Shown piece by piece: positions 3,938 to 53,260 of a stretch of DNA of 64,000 nucleotides. Within the stretch, counting starts at the first letter, position 1; every line of letters starts with the position of its first letter. A program made the translations under genes and the position numbers. The notes below the pieces were generated by a model. That model worked only from the letters and a program-made list of their open reading frames with translations. It was not told where the DNA came from and did no database searches. Origin of the DNA: Phocaeicola oris (lineage in GTDB: Bacteria > Bacteroidota > Bacteroidia > Bacteroidales > Bacteroidaceae); the NCBI RefSeq assembly GCF_021295095.1, contig NZ_JAJLQX010000004.1:1-64000 (forward strand), given 5' to 3'.

Positions 3938-3985
3938 ACCATTCTATCAGATACAATTCAATTGGTCATAAAGAGATTATACAAA

Positions 3986-4087
3986 GTGATACGTATGAAC
4001 TGTTCAACTGATGCGGATGAGTTGCTCGGTTCATGCGGATGAGTTACTCAACTGATGCGGATGAGTTAGGCAATTCATCCGCATCAC
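3986..4087. repeat. 22-bp periodic intergenic array A (five units)
   Basis: Five units begin at 3987, 4009, 4031, 4053 and 4075, exactly 22 bp apart. The core is TSATGCGGATGAGTT in the middle units. The first unit (TGATACGTATGAAC) and the last (TCATCCGCATCAC) are inverted relative to each other, so the array is bounded by GTGAT and ATCAC. A CATAAAGAGA box at 3967-3976 precedes it by 9 nt, and a T run follows it. Confidence 0.85.
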
Positions 4088-4245
4088 TTTTTTCGTTCGT
4101 ATATATCAATGCAATTGTTGTCCATGATCAGTTTTTCCTAAAGCCTTATATCCATCTAAAAAGATACAGCAATATACCACGAGCATCGTTTTAACTCATC
4201 GAATTCACATTATAAACACCCAGCTTCTGTTTAGCAAGAGCTCAA

Positions 4246-11808: not shown

Positions 11809-11891
11809 TGACTATACCATTTGAAAGGAATAAAATAAGTTCAAAGCTTAATCCACATCAACGAAACGGATGATATACAACACTCTGAAAA

Positions 11892-11993
11892 GTCATACGT
11901 ATAAGTCAATCAAATGATACGCATGAGTTGAACAACTCATACGTATGAGTTGAGCAAATGATACGCATCATTTTCTCCATTCATACGCATCAC
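11892..11993. repeat. 22-bp periodic intergenic array B (five units)
   Basis: Units begin at 11893, 11915, 11937, 11959 and 11981, exactly 22 bp apart. The core TSATACGYATGA is a perfect palindrome in the third unit (TCATACGTATGA). The 10-bp linker GTTGAACAAC is also a dyad. The last unit is TCATACGCATCAC, so the array ends with ATCAC as array A does. Confidence 0.85.
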
Positions 11994-12280
11994 TTCAACG
12001 GGACATCAGCATCACAAGATAATATTCATTTTACCATTCATCATCTTCATCCGAAAAAACGGAAATCTCTTACTAAAAAGATACGCCTTTCACTTCATAT
12101 CCTTAAATTTATCCCTGACAAGCATAAAGGAAACATCTTACTGCTACCATGTTCTATGCCCGTTTTAAGGGTAAAGAAGCTCATTACTCGCAAAAGATAT
12201 GCCCACCAAGCTCCAATCCTTCAGTCAGACTGAAATAAAATATTCCCTGCATAAAACATACTTTATGTAAAAGAATTAAC

Positions 12281-12310: not shown

Positions 12311-14329
12311 ATGAACAACAAGAATTTAATGAATCACGCGGCTGATAATATTCGTATCTTAGCTGCTTCCATGGTTGAGAAAGCTAATTCCGGTCATCCG
12401 GGCGGCGCAATGGGTGGTGCCGATTTTATCAATGTGCTATTTACTGAGTTCTTAGAATATGATCCAGACAAACCTGATTGGGAAGGACGCGACCGTTTCT
12501 TTCTTGATCCCGGGCACATGTCTCCTATGCTTTATTCCACACTTGCTCTGACAGGTAAGTTTACCATAGAAGAATTACAACAGTTCAGGCAGTGGGGTTC
12601 ACCTACTCCGGGACATCCCGAACTTAACGTGACGCGTGGCATAGAAAACACATCCGGTCCGTTGGGACAGGGACACTGTTTTGCTGTCGGAGCGGCTATG
12701 GCTGCTAAATTTCTTGCTGCTCGCACAGGGAATCCTACATTTACCAAAGAAACTATTTACGCCTACATCTCCGACGGTGGTATCCAAGAGGAGATTTCTC
12801 AAGGCTCCGGAAGAATTGCCGGAACATTAGGTTTAGATAACCTGATTATGTTCTATGATTCCAATGATGTTCAACTCTCTACTGATACAAAAGATGTTGA
12901 CGCTGAAGACACAGCCATGAAGTATCGTGCTTGGAACTGGAACGTGATTCAGATTGACGGTAATGATTGCGAACAGATTCGAGAAGCCTTGAAGCAGGCA
13001 AAAGCCGAGACAAAACGTCCTACTATCATCATAGGCAAATGCATTATGGGCAAAGGTGCTCTGAAAGAAGACGGTTCCTCATACGAACGCACTTGTAAAA
13101 CTCATGGTTCGCCCTTAGGCAACGGCGCATATATTAATACCATTAAACATTTAGGTGGCAATCCGGAGAATCCGTTCGTTGTATTCGATGATGTAAAGAA
13201 ACTCTATGAAGACAGAAAAGTTAAGTTAAGAAGCATAGTTGCCGAACGACATAAAGAAGAAGCTGAATGGGCTGCGTCGAATCCTGACATGGCAGTTCAA
13301 CAAGCCGAGTGGTTCTCGGGAAAAGCTCCGAAAGTAGATTGGAAATCCATTGTACAGAAACCGGGAGTTGCTACCCGTAACGCATCTGCTACAGTACTTG
13401 GCTTATTGGCTGAACAAGTTCCAAATATGATCTGCGCGTCTGCCGACCTGTCCAATTCAGATAAGACCGATGGTTTCTTGAAAAAGACTCACTCGTTCAA
13501 AAACGGAGACTTCAGCGGGGCATTCTTCCAAGCCGGAGTTTCAGAATTGTCAATGGCTTGCTGCTGCATCGGAATGATGCTCCACGGCGGAGTCATTGCG
13601 ACTTGCGGAACATTCTTTGTATTTTCAGATTATATGAAGCCGGCTGTACGTTTAGCAGGTTTAATGGAGACACCTATCAAATTCATCTGGACACACGACG
13701 CATTCCGTGTCGGTGAAGATGGTCCTACTCATGAGCCTGTTGAGCAAGAAGCTCAGATTCGCCTGATGGAGAAATTGAAAAATCATCATGGAAAGAATTC
13801 TTTCCTTGTTCTTCGTCCGGCTGATGCTGAAGAGACAACAGTCGCATGGAAATTGGCAATGGAAAACACCGCCTCTCCTACCGCCTTAATCCTCTCTCGC
13901 CAAACAATTGAAATGTTACCCGAAGGCAACGACTATTCTCAGGCTGCCAAAGGAGCTTATATAGTCAAAGGTTCAGAAAATAACCCGGATGTTATCATGG
14001 TAGCTTCCGGTTCGGAAGTGGCTACATTGGAAGCAGGTGCCATACTCCTTCGAAAAGACGGAATAAAGGTACGCATCGTATCGGCTCCGTCCGAGGGGCT
14101 GTTTCGATCACAGCCAAAAGAATATCAAGAGAGTATTCTTCCAAAGAATGCAAAGATATTCGGTCTGACTGCCGGTTTGCCTGTCACACTTGAAGGATTG
14201 GTTGGTGCCAATGGAAAAGTATTCGGATTAGAGTCTTTCGGATTCAGTGCCCCTTATAAAGTACTCGATGAGAAATTAGGCTTCACTGCCGAGAATGTTT
14301 ACAACCAAGTAAAAGATATGCTCAAATGA
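12311..14329 (+). CDS. tkt: Transketolase
   Basis: Thiamine-diphosphate enzyme of the non-oxidative pentose phosphate pathway, 672 residues, the normal length. Key motifs are ANSGHPGGAMG at the N-terminus, the TPP/Mg segment SDGGIQEEIS followed by LDNLIMFYDSNDVQLS, and in the second domain WTHDAFRVGEDGPTHEPVEQ with the family's catalytic-site His and Glu residues. With rpiB it channels xylulose 5-phosphate produced by the ara operon upstream. Its stop overlaps the rpiB start (ATGA), so the two are translationally coupled. It has its own promoter. Confidence 0.97.
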   Translation: MNNKNLMNHAADNIRILAASMVEKANSGHPGGAMGGADFINVLFTEFLEYDPDKPDWEGRDRFFLDPGHMSPMLYSTLALTGKFTIEELQQFRQWGSPTPGHPELNVTRGIENTSGPLGQGHCFAVGAAMAAKFLAARTGNPTFTKETIYAYISDGGIQEEISQGSGRIAGTLGLDNLIMFYDSNDVQLSTDTKDVDAEDTAMKYRAWNWNVIQIDGNDCEQIREALKQAKAETKRPTIIIGKCIMGKGALKEDGSSYERTCKTHGSPLGNGAYINTIKHLGGNPENPFVVFDDVKKLYEDRKVKLRSIVAERHKEEAEWAASNPDMAVQQAEWFSGKAPKVDWKSIVQKPGVATRNASATVLGLLAEQVPNMICASADLSNSDKTDGFLKKTHSFKNGDFSGAFFQAGVSELSMACCCIGMMLHGGVIATCGTFFVFSDYMKPAVRLAGLMETPIKFIWTHDAFRVGEDGPTHEPVEQEAQIRLMEKLKNHHGKNSFLVLRPADAEETTVAWKLAMENTASPTALILSRQTIEMLPEGNDYSQAAKGAYIVKGSENNPDVIMVASGSEVATLEAGAILLRKDGIKVRIVSAPSEGLFRSQPKEYQESILPKNAKIFGLTAGLPVTLEGLVGANGKVFGLESFGFSAPYKVLDEKLGFTAENVYNQVKDMLK

Positions 14330-19298: not shown

Positions 19299-19412
19299 AT
19301 TATCTATTCTATTGCTTCGTATTATTAGCCTATCCTATCGGATTTAAGTATCCATCTAAGAAAATTAATCATTTTATAAGTTAATCTATCTGCTTTATAA
19401 TAACAACTAAGT

Positions 19413-19523
19413 GTGTCTCGATGGAAATGCATGTGTCTCACGCAGGTGGTGCACGTGAACCACGCACGTGGCGCACATGTCTCACGCAGGTAGTACACAT
19501 GTATCACGAGCGTGGTACACCTA
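19413..19523. repeat. 22-bp periodic intergenic array C (CACG type, about five units)
   Basis: Units starting at 19437, 19459, 19481 and 19503 repeat every 22 bp. A degenerate unit precedes them from about 19413: its GCATGTG end (19429) is exactly 22 bp from GCACGTG (19451). The core is YCACGCASGTGG and the linker is YGCACRTG, so each unit holds two dyads. The sequence differs from arrays A and B, but period and architecture are the same. Confidence 0.8.
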
Positions 19524-19636
19524 ATTGATTTTATAAATAAATTAAATCTTCAAATAAAAAACAAATAACACACGTTGCCGGAACATAAAATATGTGTATA
19601 AAATGACAATTTTTTGTTTGTAACTGTGATTTGATT

Positions 19637-29517: not shown

Positions 29518-29548
29518 TGAAAGTGAGTTTAATGAATTTAAATAAAAA

Positions 29549-29589
29549 AGCCGTGTATCATTACTTCTTTTTAAATAGATACACGGCTT
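29549..29589. terminator. Bidirectional terminator between convergent genes
   Basis: AAGCCGTGTATC pairs perfectly with GATACACGGCTT. The A run on the left and T-rich DNA on the right serve both the amidase gene and rseP. Confidence 0.85.
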
Positions 29590-29632
29590 GTGTTATTTTA
29601 AATCGTCAATTGACCTTATTTATACCCCAATT

Positions 29633-36306: not shown

Positions 36307-37183
36307 TATAAAAACCAACTCTTTCAAGGCATGGATGCTGGCAGCACGGCCCAAAACATTGGCAGGAGCCGCAGTGCCTGTATTGATTGGTTGCGGATTG
36401 GCTTATTCCGAAAATGTATTCCAACTGATTCCTTCCATAATTTGCTTCCTGTTTGCTTTTGTCATGCAAATTGACGCAAACTTTATCAATGATTATTTTG
36501 ATTTTAAAAAAGGAGATGACAGAGAAGACCGATTAGGTCCGGAACGTGCATGCGCACAAGGATGGATAACACTTCAAGCCATGAAAAAAGGAATTACCAT
36601 CACCTCAATACTGGCTTGTTCCATAGGCAGTTGTATTTTATTCTATGCCGACAGTATTATGATTATTGTCGGACTTCTTTGTGTGTTATTTGCATTCCTT
36701 TATACCACTCGACTCGGGCATCTGGGATTAGGGGACATATTAGTTCTCATTTTCTTCGGACTTGTTCCGGTATGTGGAACATTCTATGTTATGGCTCATT
36801 CCTTGACATGGGAGGTCATCATCGCGTCCCTTGCTTGTGGGTTAGTAATTGACACGCTTTTGATGGTGAATAACTATCGTGACAGAGAACAGGACAAGAA
36901 AAGCAACAAGCGCACTATTGTTGTCCGTTATGGAGAGAAAGCAGGTCAACAACTTTATTTACTATTAGGCATAACAGGAACCGGACTTTGTCTGTTTTTT
37001 ATTCCGAAAGGCCATATTTGGGCAGCCTTTTTACCTCAACTATATCTTATTTTTCATTTGTCCACATGGAAAGAGATGACGCATATCTGCCAAGGCAAGA
37101 AACTGAATATCATTCTTGGAAAGACCTCACGGAATATGCTTCTTTTTGGAATTCTGCTTACATTAGGATTCATTCTAAAGTGA
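36299..37183 (+). CDS. menA: 1,4-dihydroxy-2-naphthoate polyprenyltransferase (UbiA family)
   Basis: 294-residue integral membrane prenyltransferase of menaquinone synthesis. About eight to nine hydrophobic helices. The prenyl-diphosphate motif is [17 protein letters not shown], and the second Asp-rich motif is [36 protein letters not shown] opens the protein as in MenA. It overlaps nadD by 8 bp. Its stop codon TGA is also the first three bases of the 22-bp array D. Confidence 0.93.
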
Positions 37184-37322
37184 TGCCCGACAACGAAGCA
37201 AATGATGAAGATGAAATCATCATTTCATGCGTATGAAATCATTGTTTCACTACTGTGAAACGATCTACTCATACGCATGACTTTCGGAAAACTTCTGATG
37301 ACTTTCAAAAAACTCATGATGA
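37181..37322. repeat. 22-bp periodic intergenic array D (five or more units)
   Basis: Units begin at 37181, 37203, 37225, 37247 and 37269, all exactly 22 bp apart, with degenerate continuation to about 37322. Clear cores are TCATGCGTATGA (37225), TCACTACTGTGA (37247) and TCATACGCATGA (37269). The first unit starts at the menA stop codon. The unit at 37247 resembles the TCAC-GTGA core of array F, so both core types occur in one array. Confidence 0.8.
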
Positions 37323-42771: not shown

Positions 42772-42892
42772 TTTAAAAATTCTTTTTAATGTTAACTACT
42801 AAAAAACAATTTTCCGACTCCTACAATTATCCCCGGACCGAATAATCGTAGTGCCAGATTTTTCTTTTATTCTTTTGATAATAATCGGCTTG
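42772..42892 (-). other. 5' leader of the rplM operon, possible autoregulatory site
   Basis: About 115 nt separate the deduced start of transcription from the rplM ATG. In transcript sense the leader repeats CGATTATT twice and contains a GC-rich stretch, CGGTCCGGGG, in an otherwise AT-rich spacer. Ribosomal protein operons often carry feedback-binding leaders, but I cannot fold this one reliably. Confidence 0.4.
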
Positions 42893-42923
42893 CAAAAGTA
42901 CGGCTTTTCTTTTAACTGACAAA
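42893..42923 (-). promoter_or_regulatory. Promoter of the rplM-rpsI-rpsB-tsf operon
   Basis: On the minus strand, TTTG (42923-42920) and TACTTTTG (42900-42893) are spaced by exactly 19 nt, an excellent -33/-7 pair of the Bacteroidetes type. Confidence 0.8.
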
Positions 42924-42975
42924 CAAAATCAGTTTTTTTTTGATGTTTTAGAAAAACCAACAGCTTAAAAGTTAT

Positions 42976-43203
42976 TTAACGGAACCATGTGCCATCAACA
43001 GGTTCATCTTTTGGACGAGCAATACCACTGTTCCTTTCACTCAACACTTTGGATGCCGGTACATGTATAACCTTTCCATCAGAACTACCGTAACACAACT
43101 CACCATCACGACGAGCTGTGTCTTCAATAAGCTGACGCTCTGCCACTTCCAATCCATAGCGAAGCTTATTGCTAAATTCCTGATAATCTTCTTTAGTTGA
43201 CAT
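42976..43203 (-). CDS. Small partner of the zeta-like toxin (putative antitoxin)
   Basis: 75-residue protein whose start overlaps the end of the zeta-like gene by 11 bp. It is helical and charged in the first half (EDYQEFSNKLRYGLEVAERQLIEDTARRDG) and has a short beta-like stretch, GKVIHVPASKVL. Small proteins of this pattern often accompany zeta-like kinases in other genomes, where they are candidate antitoxins. The order here is toxin first. The pairing is by context; neutralisation is not shown. Confidence 0.65.
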   Translation of the reverse strand: MSTKEDYQEFSNKLRYGLEVAERQLIEDTARRDGELCYGSSDGKVIHVPASKVLSERNSGIARPKDEPVDGTWFR

Positions 43204-46685: not shown

Positions 46686-46722
46686 GTAATACGTATGAAT
46701 CACCCGACTCATACGCATTACT
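46686..46722. repeat. 22-bp periodic intergenic array E (two units)
   Basis: Units TAATACGTATGA (46687) and TCATACGCATTA (46709) are 22 bp apart. Together they form an inverted repeat, AGTAATACGTATGA with TCATACGCATTACT (one mismatch). The box TATAAAGAGA at 46667-46676 stands 9 nt before, as in array A. Confidence 0.75.
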
Positions 46723-46853
46723 AAATGAATATTATGAAGAATACGGAAACTCAACCATATTTCTTTCCACATTCTAATGCATGAAAACAATGCTATTATA
46801 GGTAGTTTCAAAAAAAACTTTTATTAATTCAGACTTTCTACAGAATTAAGCAT

Positions 46854-52445: not shown

Positions 52446-52611
52446 AGCAAATTTTCAAATCACACTCATAGTTTATCACTAAAGATACTTAAAAAGTATG
52501 GAGAAAAGGGTGCAAAAGATTGCTCCGGTTCCGAGCAAGACGACATAAAATAAGGAGAATTCGACGAATATAAAGCAACAGCTACTGAGTTGTACGTGAA
52601 ACAATGAAAAA

Positions 52612-52887
52612 TGATATGGATGAGTTCCCGTATTCATCAGAAGATTTATTTGTTTCACATCAGTGAAACAAGTGAATCACATCAGTGAAACAAGTGAATC
52701 ACATCAGTGAAACAAGTGAATCACATCAGTGAAACAAGTGAATCACATCAGTGAAACAAGTGAATCACATCAGTGAAACAAGTGAATCACATCAGTGAAA
52801 CGAGAGAATCACTTAAGTGAAACAAATAAATTATCAGTATAAGTTGAGTGATTCATCCACATGAGTAGCTCAACTCATACGCATCAC
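52612..52887. repeat. 22-bp periodic intergenic array F (about 13 units)
   Basis: Units start at 52612 and 52634; after one 21-bp step they run at 52655 and every 22 bp to 52875. Six consecutive units (52655-52786) are identical, with core TCACATCAGTGA and linker AACAAGTGAA. The next two drift (52787, 52809), and the right end returns to the common family: TCATCCACATGAGT (52853) and TCATACGCATCAC (52875). Read on the minus strand, that end has GTGATGCGTATGA, 9 nt from CATAAAGAGA (52906-52897). Confidence 0.9.
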
Positions 52888-53260
52888 ATTTTCAACTCTC
52901 TTTATGATATATTTTAATGAACCTGACGGAAACGTAAAAACATCGTTTAAATATATTCTGTGGATACTTTTATCTCTTCTTTTGATTCTACATAACATTT
53001 CTCTTTTGTATCACACAAAACGCAAACAACCTTGAAAAATTACCATCAGATAAGCTGTGTGATAAAAATAAACGACAAAACAACCTGAATTAATCTTCCG
53101 ATTGATATATTTTTTCGGAATCACCTTAAATATGGCGCAGGAGAAAAACAATAACAGACCAAAGGAAATATTAATATTTAAAACGTCACAAATTTATTTT
53201 AATCAGTACTCTTATCTTCAAATAAATTTATAAACCACTCAACTTTTCTCATCTTTTTCT

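Follow-up and report, generated by a model that had tools for sequence, protein, structure and literature searches.

The intergenic regions of the 64-kb window (the whole stretch of DNA analysed here, 64,000 nucleotides) contain tandem 12-bp dyads in an exact 22-bp phase, and this observation of the earlier note on the same DNA is confirmed. The arrays are likely to be DNA binding arrays of HU-HIG proteins, in which an HU fold is followed by a C-terminal winged helix. This family corresponds to Pfam PF18291, and its solved example is 4fmr, protein BVU_2165 of Bacteroides vulgatus ATCC 8482. The arrays look like landing strips for HU-HIG proteins, because arrays of the same kinds stand before HU-HIG genes. 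What the analysis shows is the period, the symmetry, a conserved frame and the linkage of array types to HU-HIG promoters; binding, cooperativity, autorepression and the chromosomal role are inferred.

Each unit consists of a 12-bp dyad of the TCAY-N4-RTGA type and a 10-bp linker, and such units form arrays in the gaps of the window (Table 1). In a lag scan of the window, where lags from 17 to 29 were compared and a region was called at identity of at least 42/66, four regions were found at lag 22 (3973-4108, 11869-12017, 19401-19533 and 52622-52857) and none at any other lag. No region at lag 22 appeared in 50 local-composition shuffles of the window. Pairs of dyads (TCAY-N4-RTGA, at most one mismatch) are separated by 22, 44, 66 and 88 bp in 19, 14, 12 and 9 cases, respectively, and no other spacing up to 100 bp is seen in more than two cases.

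Table 1. Arrays of 22-bp units in the window (strand-neutral features are marked with a dot).
Position	Strand	Feature	Context and remarks
3987..4096	.	type A array, five units (TCATGCGGATGA + GTTG..)	gap between sulfatase and aldose epimerase genes
11849..12024	.	type A array, eight units by the 22-column model	gap between carbohydrate kinase and transketolase genes
19413..19523	.	type C array, five units (CACGCAGGTG)	gap between POR-domain and porin genes
37181..37290	.	five units of types A and B, intermixed but all in one phase	convergent gap; cap ACTTCTGATGA on the right
46687..46730	.	type A array, two units	divergent gap; cap TCTCTTTATAG on the left flank
52612..52654	.	left end of the 52.6-kb array: one type A-like unit and cap TCATCAGAAGA	keeps the 22-bp phase; beyond it on the left, at 52553, is a diverged match to the terminal repeat
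52655..52830	.	type B array, eight 22-bp units (TCACATCAGTGA + AACAAGTGAA)	heart of the finding; gap between the adenylosuccinate lyase gene (-) and the MTHFR gene (+)
52831..52896	.	right end of the 52.6-kb array: three units grading into type A, then cap TCTCTTTATGA	

The strict 22-bp phase had been claimed for six arrays of the window. Four of them are recovered by the lag scan, and the remaining two, at 37181 and 46686, are weaker, yet in phase. It is also correct that the gene context of the arrays varies between tandem, convergent and divergent. The statement that all five gaps over 300 bp hold an array, on the other hand, cannot be upheld: counting ORFs from 90 aa upwards, the window does have five such gaps, but an array is present in four of them, and the gap 42772-43192 has none. 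Two arrays of the window lie in gaps shorter than 300 bp (213 and 166 bp). The ten window proteins adjoining arrays have no Pfam family in common.

With another 788 kb added to the window, the analysis covered 852 kb of the 2.98-Mb draft genome (G000, 50 contigs). At a threshold of 20 bits, a 22-column model finds 71 arrays in this sequence and none in the reversed sequence. Most of the arrays (54 of 71) have from four to eight units, and in four of the 71 most of the length is held by ORFs. A two-unit pattern has 331 matches per strand genome-wide and no matches in the reversed control. A scan for 22-nt autocorrelation, which had been proposed as a check, was performed on the 852 kb without any motif. 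Lag 22 dominates with 3246 positions, whereas lag 21 has 33 and the remaining lags between 18 and 26 have none, and four regions are found that were not caught by the 22-column model.

The 22-bp period holds in most arrays, but upstream of some HU-HIG genes it is replaced by 21 or 23 bp. HU-HIG promoter arrays with the 23-bp period are found on contig C16 of the same genome (22740-22840, L343) and in genome G011 (L351). The centre of the C16 array is N5 instead of N4, so that the period and the length of the centre shift together.

The genes adjoining 235 arrays, 71 from the source genome and 164 from other genomes, with some loci seen twice, were clustered. Two families recur next to the arrays: VapE-like proteins with DUF3874 (15 arrays) and HU-HIG proteins (11 arrays). 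In all 26 cases the array is situated 5' of the gene. Pfam was run on one VapE member and two HU-HIG members of these clusters. Two proteins adjoining arrays match PF18291 with 132.1 and 90.1 bits, and the proteins from contigs C6 and C11 match it with 95.2 and 101.9 bits (cut-off 26.2). Among the VapE/DUF3874 genes with an array directly upstream are those at the G011 loci L304, L310, L311 and L314, two of which are divergent from a HU-HIG gene.

In the source genome, near-full-length HU-HIG alignment matches are present on contigs C6, C11, C13 and C16 (on C13 and C16 the sequence covered stops short of the gene ends). All four of these full-length genes have a four-unit array directly upstream, and the four arrays are of four different sequence types. 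The HU-HIG protein encoded on C22 ends before the winged helix, and its upstream region contains no array. Two tandem classic HU-like frames were observed at about 116.2-117.1 kb of G000:C11, downstream of the type A array at 115925.

Promoters of HU-HIG genes were scored by identity at lags 20-23 within 450 bp upstream, with a threshold of 40/66. The threshold is reached by 12 of 21 HU-HIG promoters from four genomes and by one of 228 control promoters (Mann-Whitney p 6e-11), and the three classic HU genes have promoter scores of 27-28. Three rows from G041 were used in this set, and the HU-HIG genes on C17 and C62 of G059, cut by contig ends, and the G011 rows 4981173, 1316329 and 4113982 were left out. 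If the genes of the source genome and the two G011 arrays known beforehand are excluded, seven of 14 HU-HIG promoters score at least 40. One of the 12 promoters, that of C63 in G059, is a 10-bp tandem repeat, and setting it aside gives six of 14. Nine of the 21 promoters score below 40, and one of them (G011 806664) nonetheless has an array. A score of at least 40 is observed for 11 of 14 long HU-HIG genes, that is, those of a size to include the winged helix, and for one of seven short ones (p 0.009); at a cut-off of 37 the respective counts are 11 of 14 and three of seven (p 0.13). The evidence for a link to the winged helix is protein length, and it depends on which of these cut-offs is applied.

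The box TAnnTTTG, which we take to be the Bacteroidetes promoter element, precedes the repeat by 8-32 bp in 12 of the 21 cases, counted in HU-HIG promoters alone. Where they accompany HU-HIG genes, the arrays lie in the promoter region, where the operator of an autoregulated gene would be expected, and their position just after the promoter-like box suggests autorepression. Several paralogs have an array of their own type before their own gene, and it is probable that these paralogs repress themselves via the promoter arrays.

The array types can be linked to individual paralogs. Searched against the 852 kb, the C6 promoter array has its best match in the window, at 52652-52737 (87% over 86 nt, E 9e-25). 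For the C11 promoter array, matches are found at 19430-19501 of the window (82% over 72 nt, E 2e-14) and in five further places. No matches came from the reversed sequence used as a control. In G011, there are 16 arrays other than the promoter arrays of the HU-HIG genes 2282671 and 806664, and by linker letters alone the closest counterpart of each is one of three HU-HIG promoter arrays: six are assigned to the first, nine to the second and one to the third. All 16 assignments exceed the 95% shuffle level, though five do so by a small margin and stay under the maximum of the shuffles.

The earlier note had concluded that sequence is less conserved than period and symmetry. The cores do differ between arrays, but their change is explained by the existence of several array types, and several HU-HIG paralogs, each with its own site, would produce such differences. 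Type A is the commonest in the source genome (57 of the 71 sampled arrays), and no HU-HIG promoter matching this type (the TCATRCGYATGA array) was found in the draft, which is 95% complete. Genome G059 has many TCACTnnAGTGA arrays, none of which stands before the HU-HIG genes whose upstream DNA was read, and its HU-HIG gene on C14 has no array. The MITE-like elements that carry some of the arrays may account for the high copy number in the source species.

The model of the C6 protein has a mean pLDDT of 84 and a pTM of 0.50. In this model, the HU part resembles 4fmr and the winged helix resembles MarR-type repressors. A C-terminal winged helix after the HU domain is one of the fusions named by Pfam for PF18291. 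Sequence comparison relates the HU part to HU and IHF chains and, weakly, the C-terminal part to a Z-alpha winged helix.

One HU-HIG dimer would occupy one unit of about 22 bp. Its two winged helices would read the inverted half-sites (TCAC/GTGA) together with the half-linkers, and the HU body would lie over the central four bases, indifferent to their identity. The dimers would stand side by side, often four per array, and may bind cooperatively. The species consensuses are symmetric and the halves do not pair with each other, as would be expected if a dimer recognised its two half-sites independently. Elsewhere between genes, arrays of the same type as a paralog's promoter array would be further chromosomal sites of that paralog, and we infer that they help to organise the chromosome and do not control every neighbouring gene.

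It is possible, though we advance it only tentatively, that the Bacteroidales have several parallel chromosome-addressing systems, in which each of several HU-HIG paralogs has its own array type both in its promoter and dispersed over the chromosome, around the origin in the one lineage observed. At fixed loci, such rows of HU dimers could bend the chromosome or bridge it, and selection would hold the frame of the site while its centre would turn over rapidly.

Similar arrays, often of four units, are carried by Bacteroidales relatives. The two-unit pattern was found in 22 of 59 congeners beyond the source genome, with cores such as TCACTnnAGTGA, and in about 16 of 19 loci taken from pattern-bearing relatives there are four units, as judged by eye. 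In G059, the flanks of the arrays (L193, L194, L196, L199, L200, L201, L205) often reach CAGGGCTGACGCATTA within about 40 bp. When one genome per species is considered, the four-unit pattern finds at least 101 stretches, off-order tandem repeats included; they occur in Bacteroides, Parabacteroides, Prevotella, Hoylesella, Hallella, Tannerellaceae, Phocaeicola and others. In an order-wide sample, the four-unit TCA-N6-TGA pattern (at most three mismatches) matches 15 of 296 genomes including the source one, with an unclean control: the reversed count equals or exceeds the forward one in four of the 15 (G106, G129, G213, G242), and reversed matches are also seen in some genomes without forward matches. 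Therefore the TCA..TGA version of the arrays is patchy across the order. Arrays of other families contain other dyads, as seen by eye (e.g. GAAACTnnAGTTTC in G203).

G011 is a single contig of 5,163,189 bp, and its arrays are at loci matching those of G041. In seven syntenic loci of these two genomes the fixed positions TCAC/GTGA differ in two of 224 cases and the linker in 12 of 210, whereas the four central bases, with 34 differences of 112, are the fastest diverging part. The respective values are 26/168 for the outer 12 bp, 35/672 for the flank at 12-60 bp and 319/4684 for the flank at 60-400 bp. In the 18 best G011/G041 pairings, at least two of which are not true orthologues, there are 19/576 differences in the fixed positions, 47/540 in the linker and 67/288 in the centre. 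Five further species pairs have 8/16, 8/16, 2/16, 13/16 and 2/16 differences in the centre and 3/32, 3/32, 1/32, 2/32 and 1/32 in the fixed letters; the centre is fast in three of these pairs and no faster than the near flank in the other two. Judged against the flanks, these alignments indicate that the frame of the array is held and the centre turns over. One array is whole in G041 (L342) and interrupted by about 2.4 kb in G011 (L341).

In these two genomes the arrays appear to cluster around the origin. By sampled GC skew, the origin half contains 15 of 18 arrays in G011 and 16 of 19 in G041. The array-free arcs constitute 43% and 45%, respectively, and the chance of such a gap is at most 1.3e-3 and 3.5e-4. 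Since the arrays of G011 and G041 are orthologous, the clustering near the origin counts as an observation on one lineage only. The two-unit pattern with at most one mismatch has 19 loci in G011 by our own count (four matches in the control), and none of them lies between 2.908 and 5.124 Mb. The HU-HIG genes of G011 have no origin bias: 11 of 15, also by our count, are inside this arc. Genome G052, where GC skew is positive in 17 of 20 samples, is left out of the origin analysis.

Three options had been offered in the earlier note: a site for a multimeric chromosome-organising or nucleoid protein, a non-autonomous repeat, and a structured RNA. The first fits best, in the particular form of array types tied to HU-HIG genes. 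One could suppose that the arrays are sites of some other protein of the neighbourhood, such as VapE/DUF3874 or a lost phage or satellite repressor, and that HU-HIG genes are merely regulated through them. Indeed, a VapE/DUF3874 gene stands behind 15 of the 235 arrays, in G011 four of seven DUF3874 genes have an array directly upstream, and type A is left without a HU-HIG partner. However, G059, G052 and G047 have arrays and no DUF3874 match, and the four array types of the four full-length HU-HIG genes in the source genome would not be predicted by one common regulator. We consider this explanation rather unlikely. Another view takes the arrays for non-autonomous MITE-like repeats comparable to BrickBuilt, spread by transposition and having no cellular function, and a part of the arrays in the source species are indeed non-autonomous repeats. 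Some arrays of the source species are surrounded by elements of about 450 bp with a leader, a tail and the ends ACGTGAGTTCGACGAA, and a terminal-inverted-repeat match is situated at most 350 bp from nine of the 71 arrays, against 0.47 expected by random placement. Similar ends are listed in PMC4596501 for MITE239 and ISPg3 of P. gingivalis. At the same time, 62 of the 71 sampled arrays have no such end at up to three mismatches, and terminal inverted repeats are present at both ends in three arrays and at one or both in nine, so that the non-autonomous repeat stands for this minority and fails for the rest. Besides, G011 and G041 have their arrays at corresponding loci, where the frame is kept and the centre has diverged, the array types match HU-HIG promoters, and no clean empty site was found among the three G011/G041 differences examined, one of which is an insertion into an array and two of which lie within more widely differing DNA. 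The 450-bp elements are real, but the MITE was rejected as the whole answer, and a purely transpositional origin without function seems improbable.

The leader of these elements, modelled after removal of array units, has 15 matches, and for 11 of these an array is at most 100 bp away. It is largely a terminator-like hairpin that is present elsewhere too. A hairpin of this kind, GCCGTGTATC..GATACACGGC, set between A- and T-rich runs, was observed at 29520-29617 of the window, and the same hairpin occurs at C33:730-801 (L057) and C2:6417-6482 (L064), with near-identical copies in the genome and in some leaders. Further along L057 (C33, about 13641-14257), repeats with ATCTACAATAGTAGAAATT lie beside a type C array; in appearance they resemble a type V-A (Cas12a) CRISPR repeat.

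The dyads could also form a structured RNA or a DNA cruciform, and the Watson-Crick covariation between species, which peaks on the whole-array dyad, would agree with that. It was calculated on 105 of 131 arrays, after near-duplicates and 15 loci that were off-order or consisted of long tandem repeats had been removed. This whole-array covariation vanished in the within-genome test, made on 16 single-genome groups with 65 arrays: halves of one array are no more complementary to each other than to halves of other arrays (z -2.4 for the array and -1.5 with flanks), and thus there is no maintained hairpin of the REP/BIME kind. Same-array pairing is higher in some single genomes (G041, PH5-46). 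As the covariation disappears within genomes, it reflects the symmetric species consensuses. The linker halves of one unit pair less (0.384) than random halves from different arrays (0.423), the G-U strand is unrelated to the direction of genes (9 sense, 7 antisense), and Rfam has no matches in the window at gathering scores. The hairpin, G-U strand and Rfam tests being negative, the RNA option is disfavoured, and a folded RNA or cruciform is very improbable. Slippage producing a minisatellite without function deserves even less credence: the near-identity of the eight units at 52655 suggests recent amplification, but the arrays of relatives often have four mutually different units, lag 22 prevails over all other lags from 18 to 26, and the frame is conserved between species.

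The binding arrays of HU-HIG proteins would thus provide a likely and directly testable DNA target for a widespread HU-type family. No described DNA site for this family, and no paper on such arrays in Bacteroidales beyond the P. gingivalis repeats, was found in the open-access literature, outside which most subscription papers lie. If the proposed function is true, the arrays constitute a chromosome-wide binding system for which no earlier description was found. A major order of gut bacteria would then have sequence-specific HU-based nucleoprotein sites kept at fixed loci, with separate address codes for separate HU-HIG paralogs. This bears on chromosome organisation in these bacteria and on the divergence of such specificities.

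Several known systems are comparable. The nucleoid-occlusion sites of Noc in B. subtilis and SlmA in E. coli are short scattered palindromes, less frequent near the terminus. The apparently origin-centred arrays of G011 and G041 would be similar in this respect. However, the protein family is different, the arrays contain multiple units, and the origin bias comes from one lineage. REP/BIME elements are palindromes linked to a tyrosine transposase (RAYT). The arrays, too, are intergenic palindromes in groups, but unlike REP/BIME their halves are not kept paired. BrickBuilt of P. gingivalis is described in PMC4596501 as a MITE with a 23-nt minisatellite, a leader and a tail, present in about 19 copies in one strain; the same source mentions 22-nt tandem repeats in strain W83, where it speaks of them, without locations. 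BrickBuilt and the arrays share the intergenic position, a tandem unit of about two helical turns, the occurrence in Bacteroidales and, for some copies, a place inside terminal repeats; compared by description only, the arrays differ in being tied to HU-HIG promoters and in having four units in relatives. Finally, PG0121 of P. gingivalis, a small HU of about 10 kDa, is reported to prefer inverted-repeat DNA over control DNA, and the capsule locus has a 77-bp inverted repeat (PMC3969353). Going by this account, PG0121 has no winged helix, unlike HU-HIG proteins, and the 77-bp repeat is set against the arrays by description only; in both cases, an HU protein of Bacteroidales would be directed to DNA with inverted repeats.
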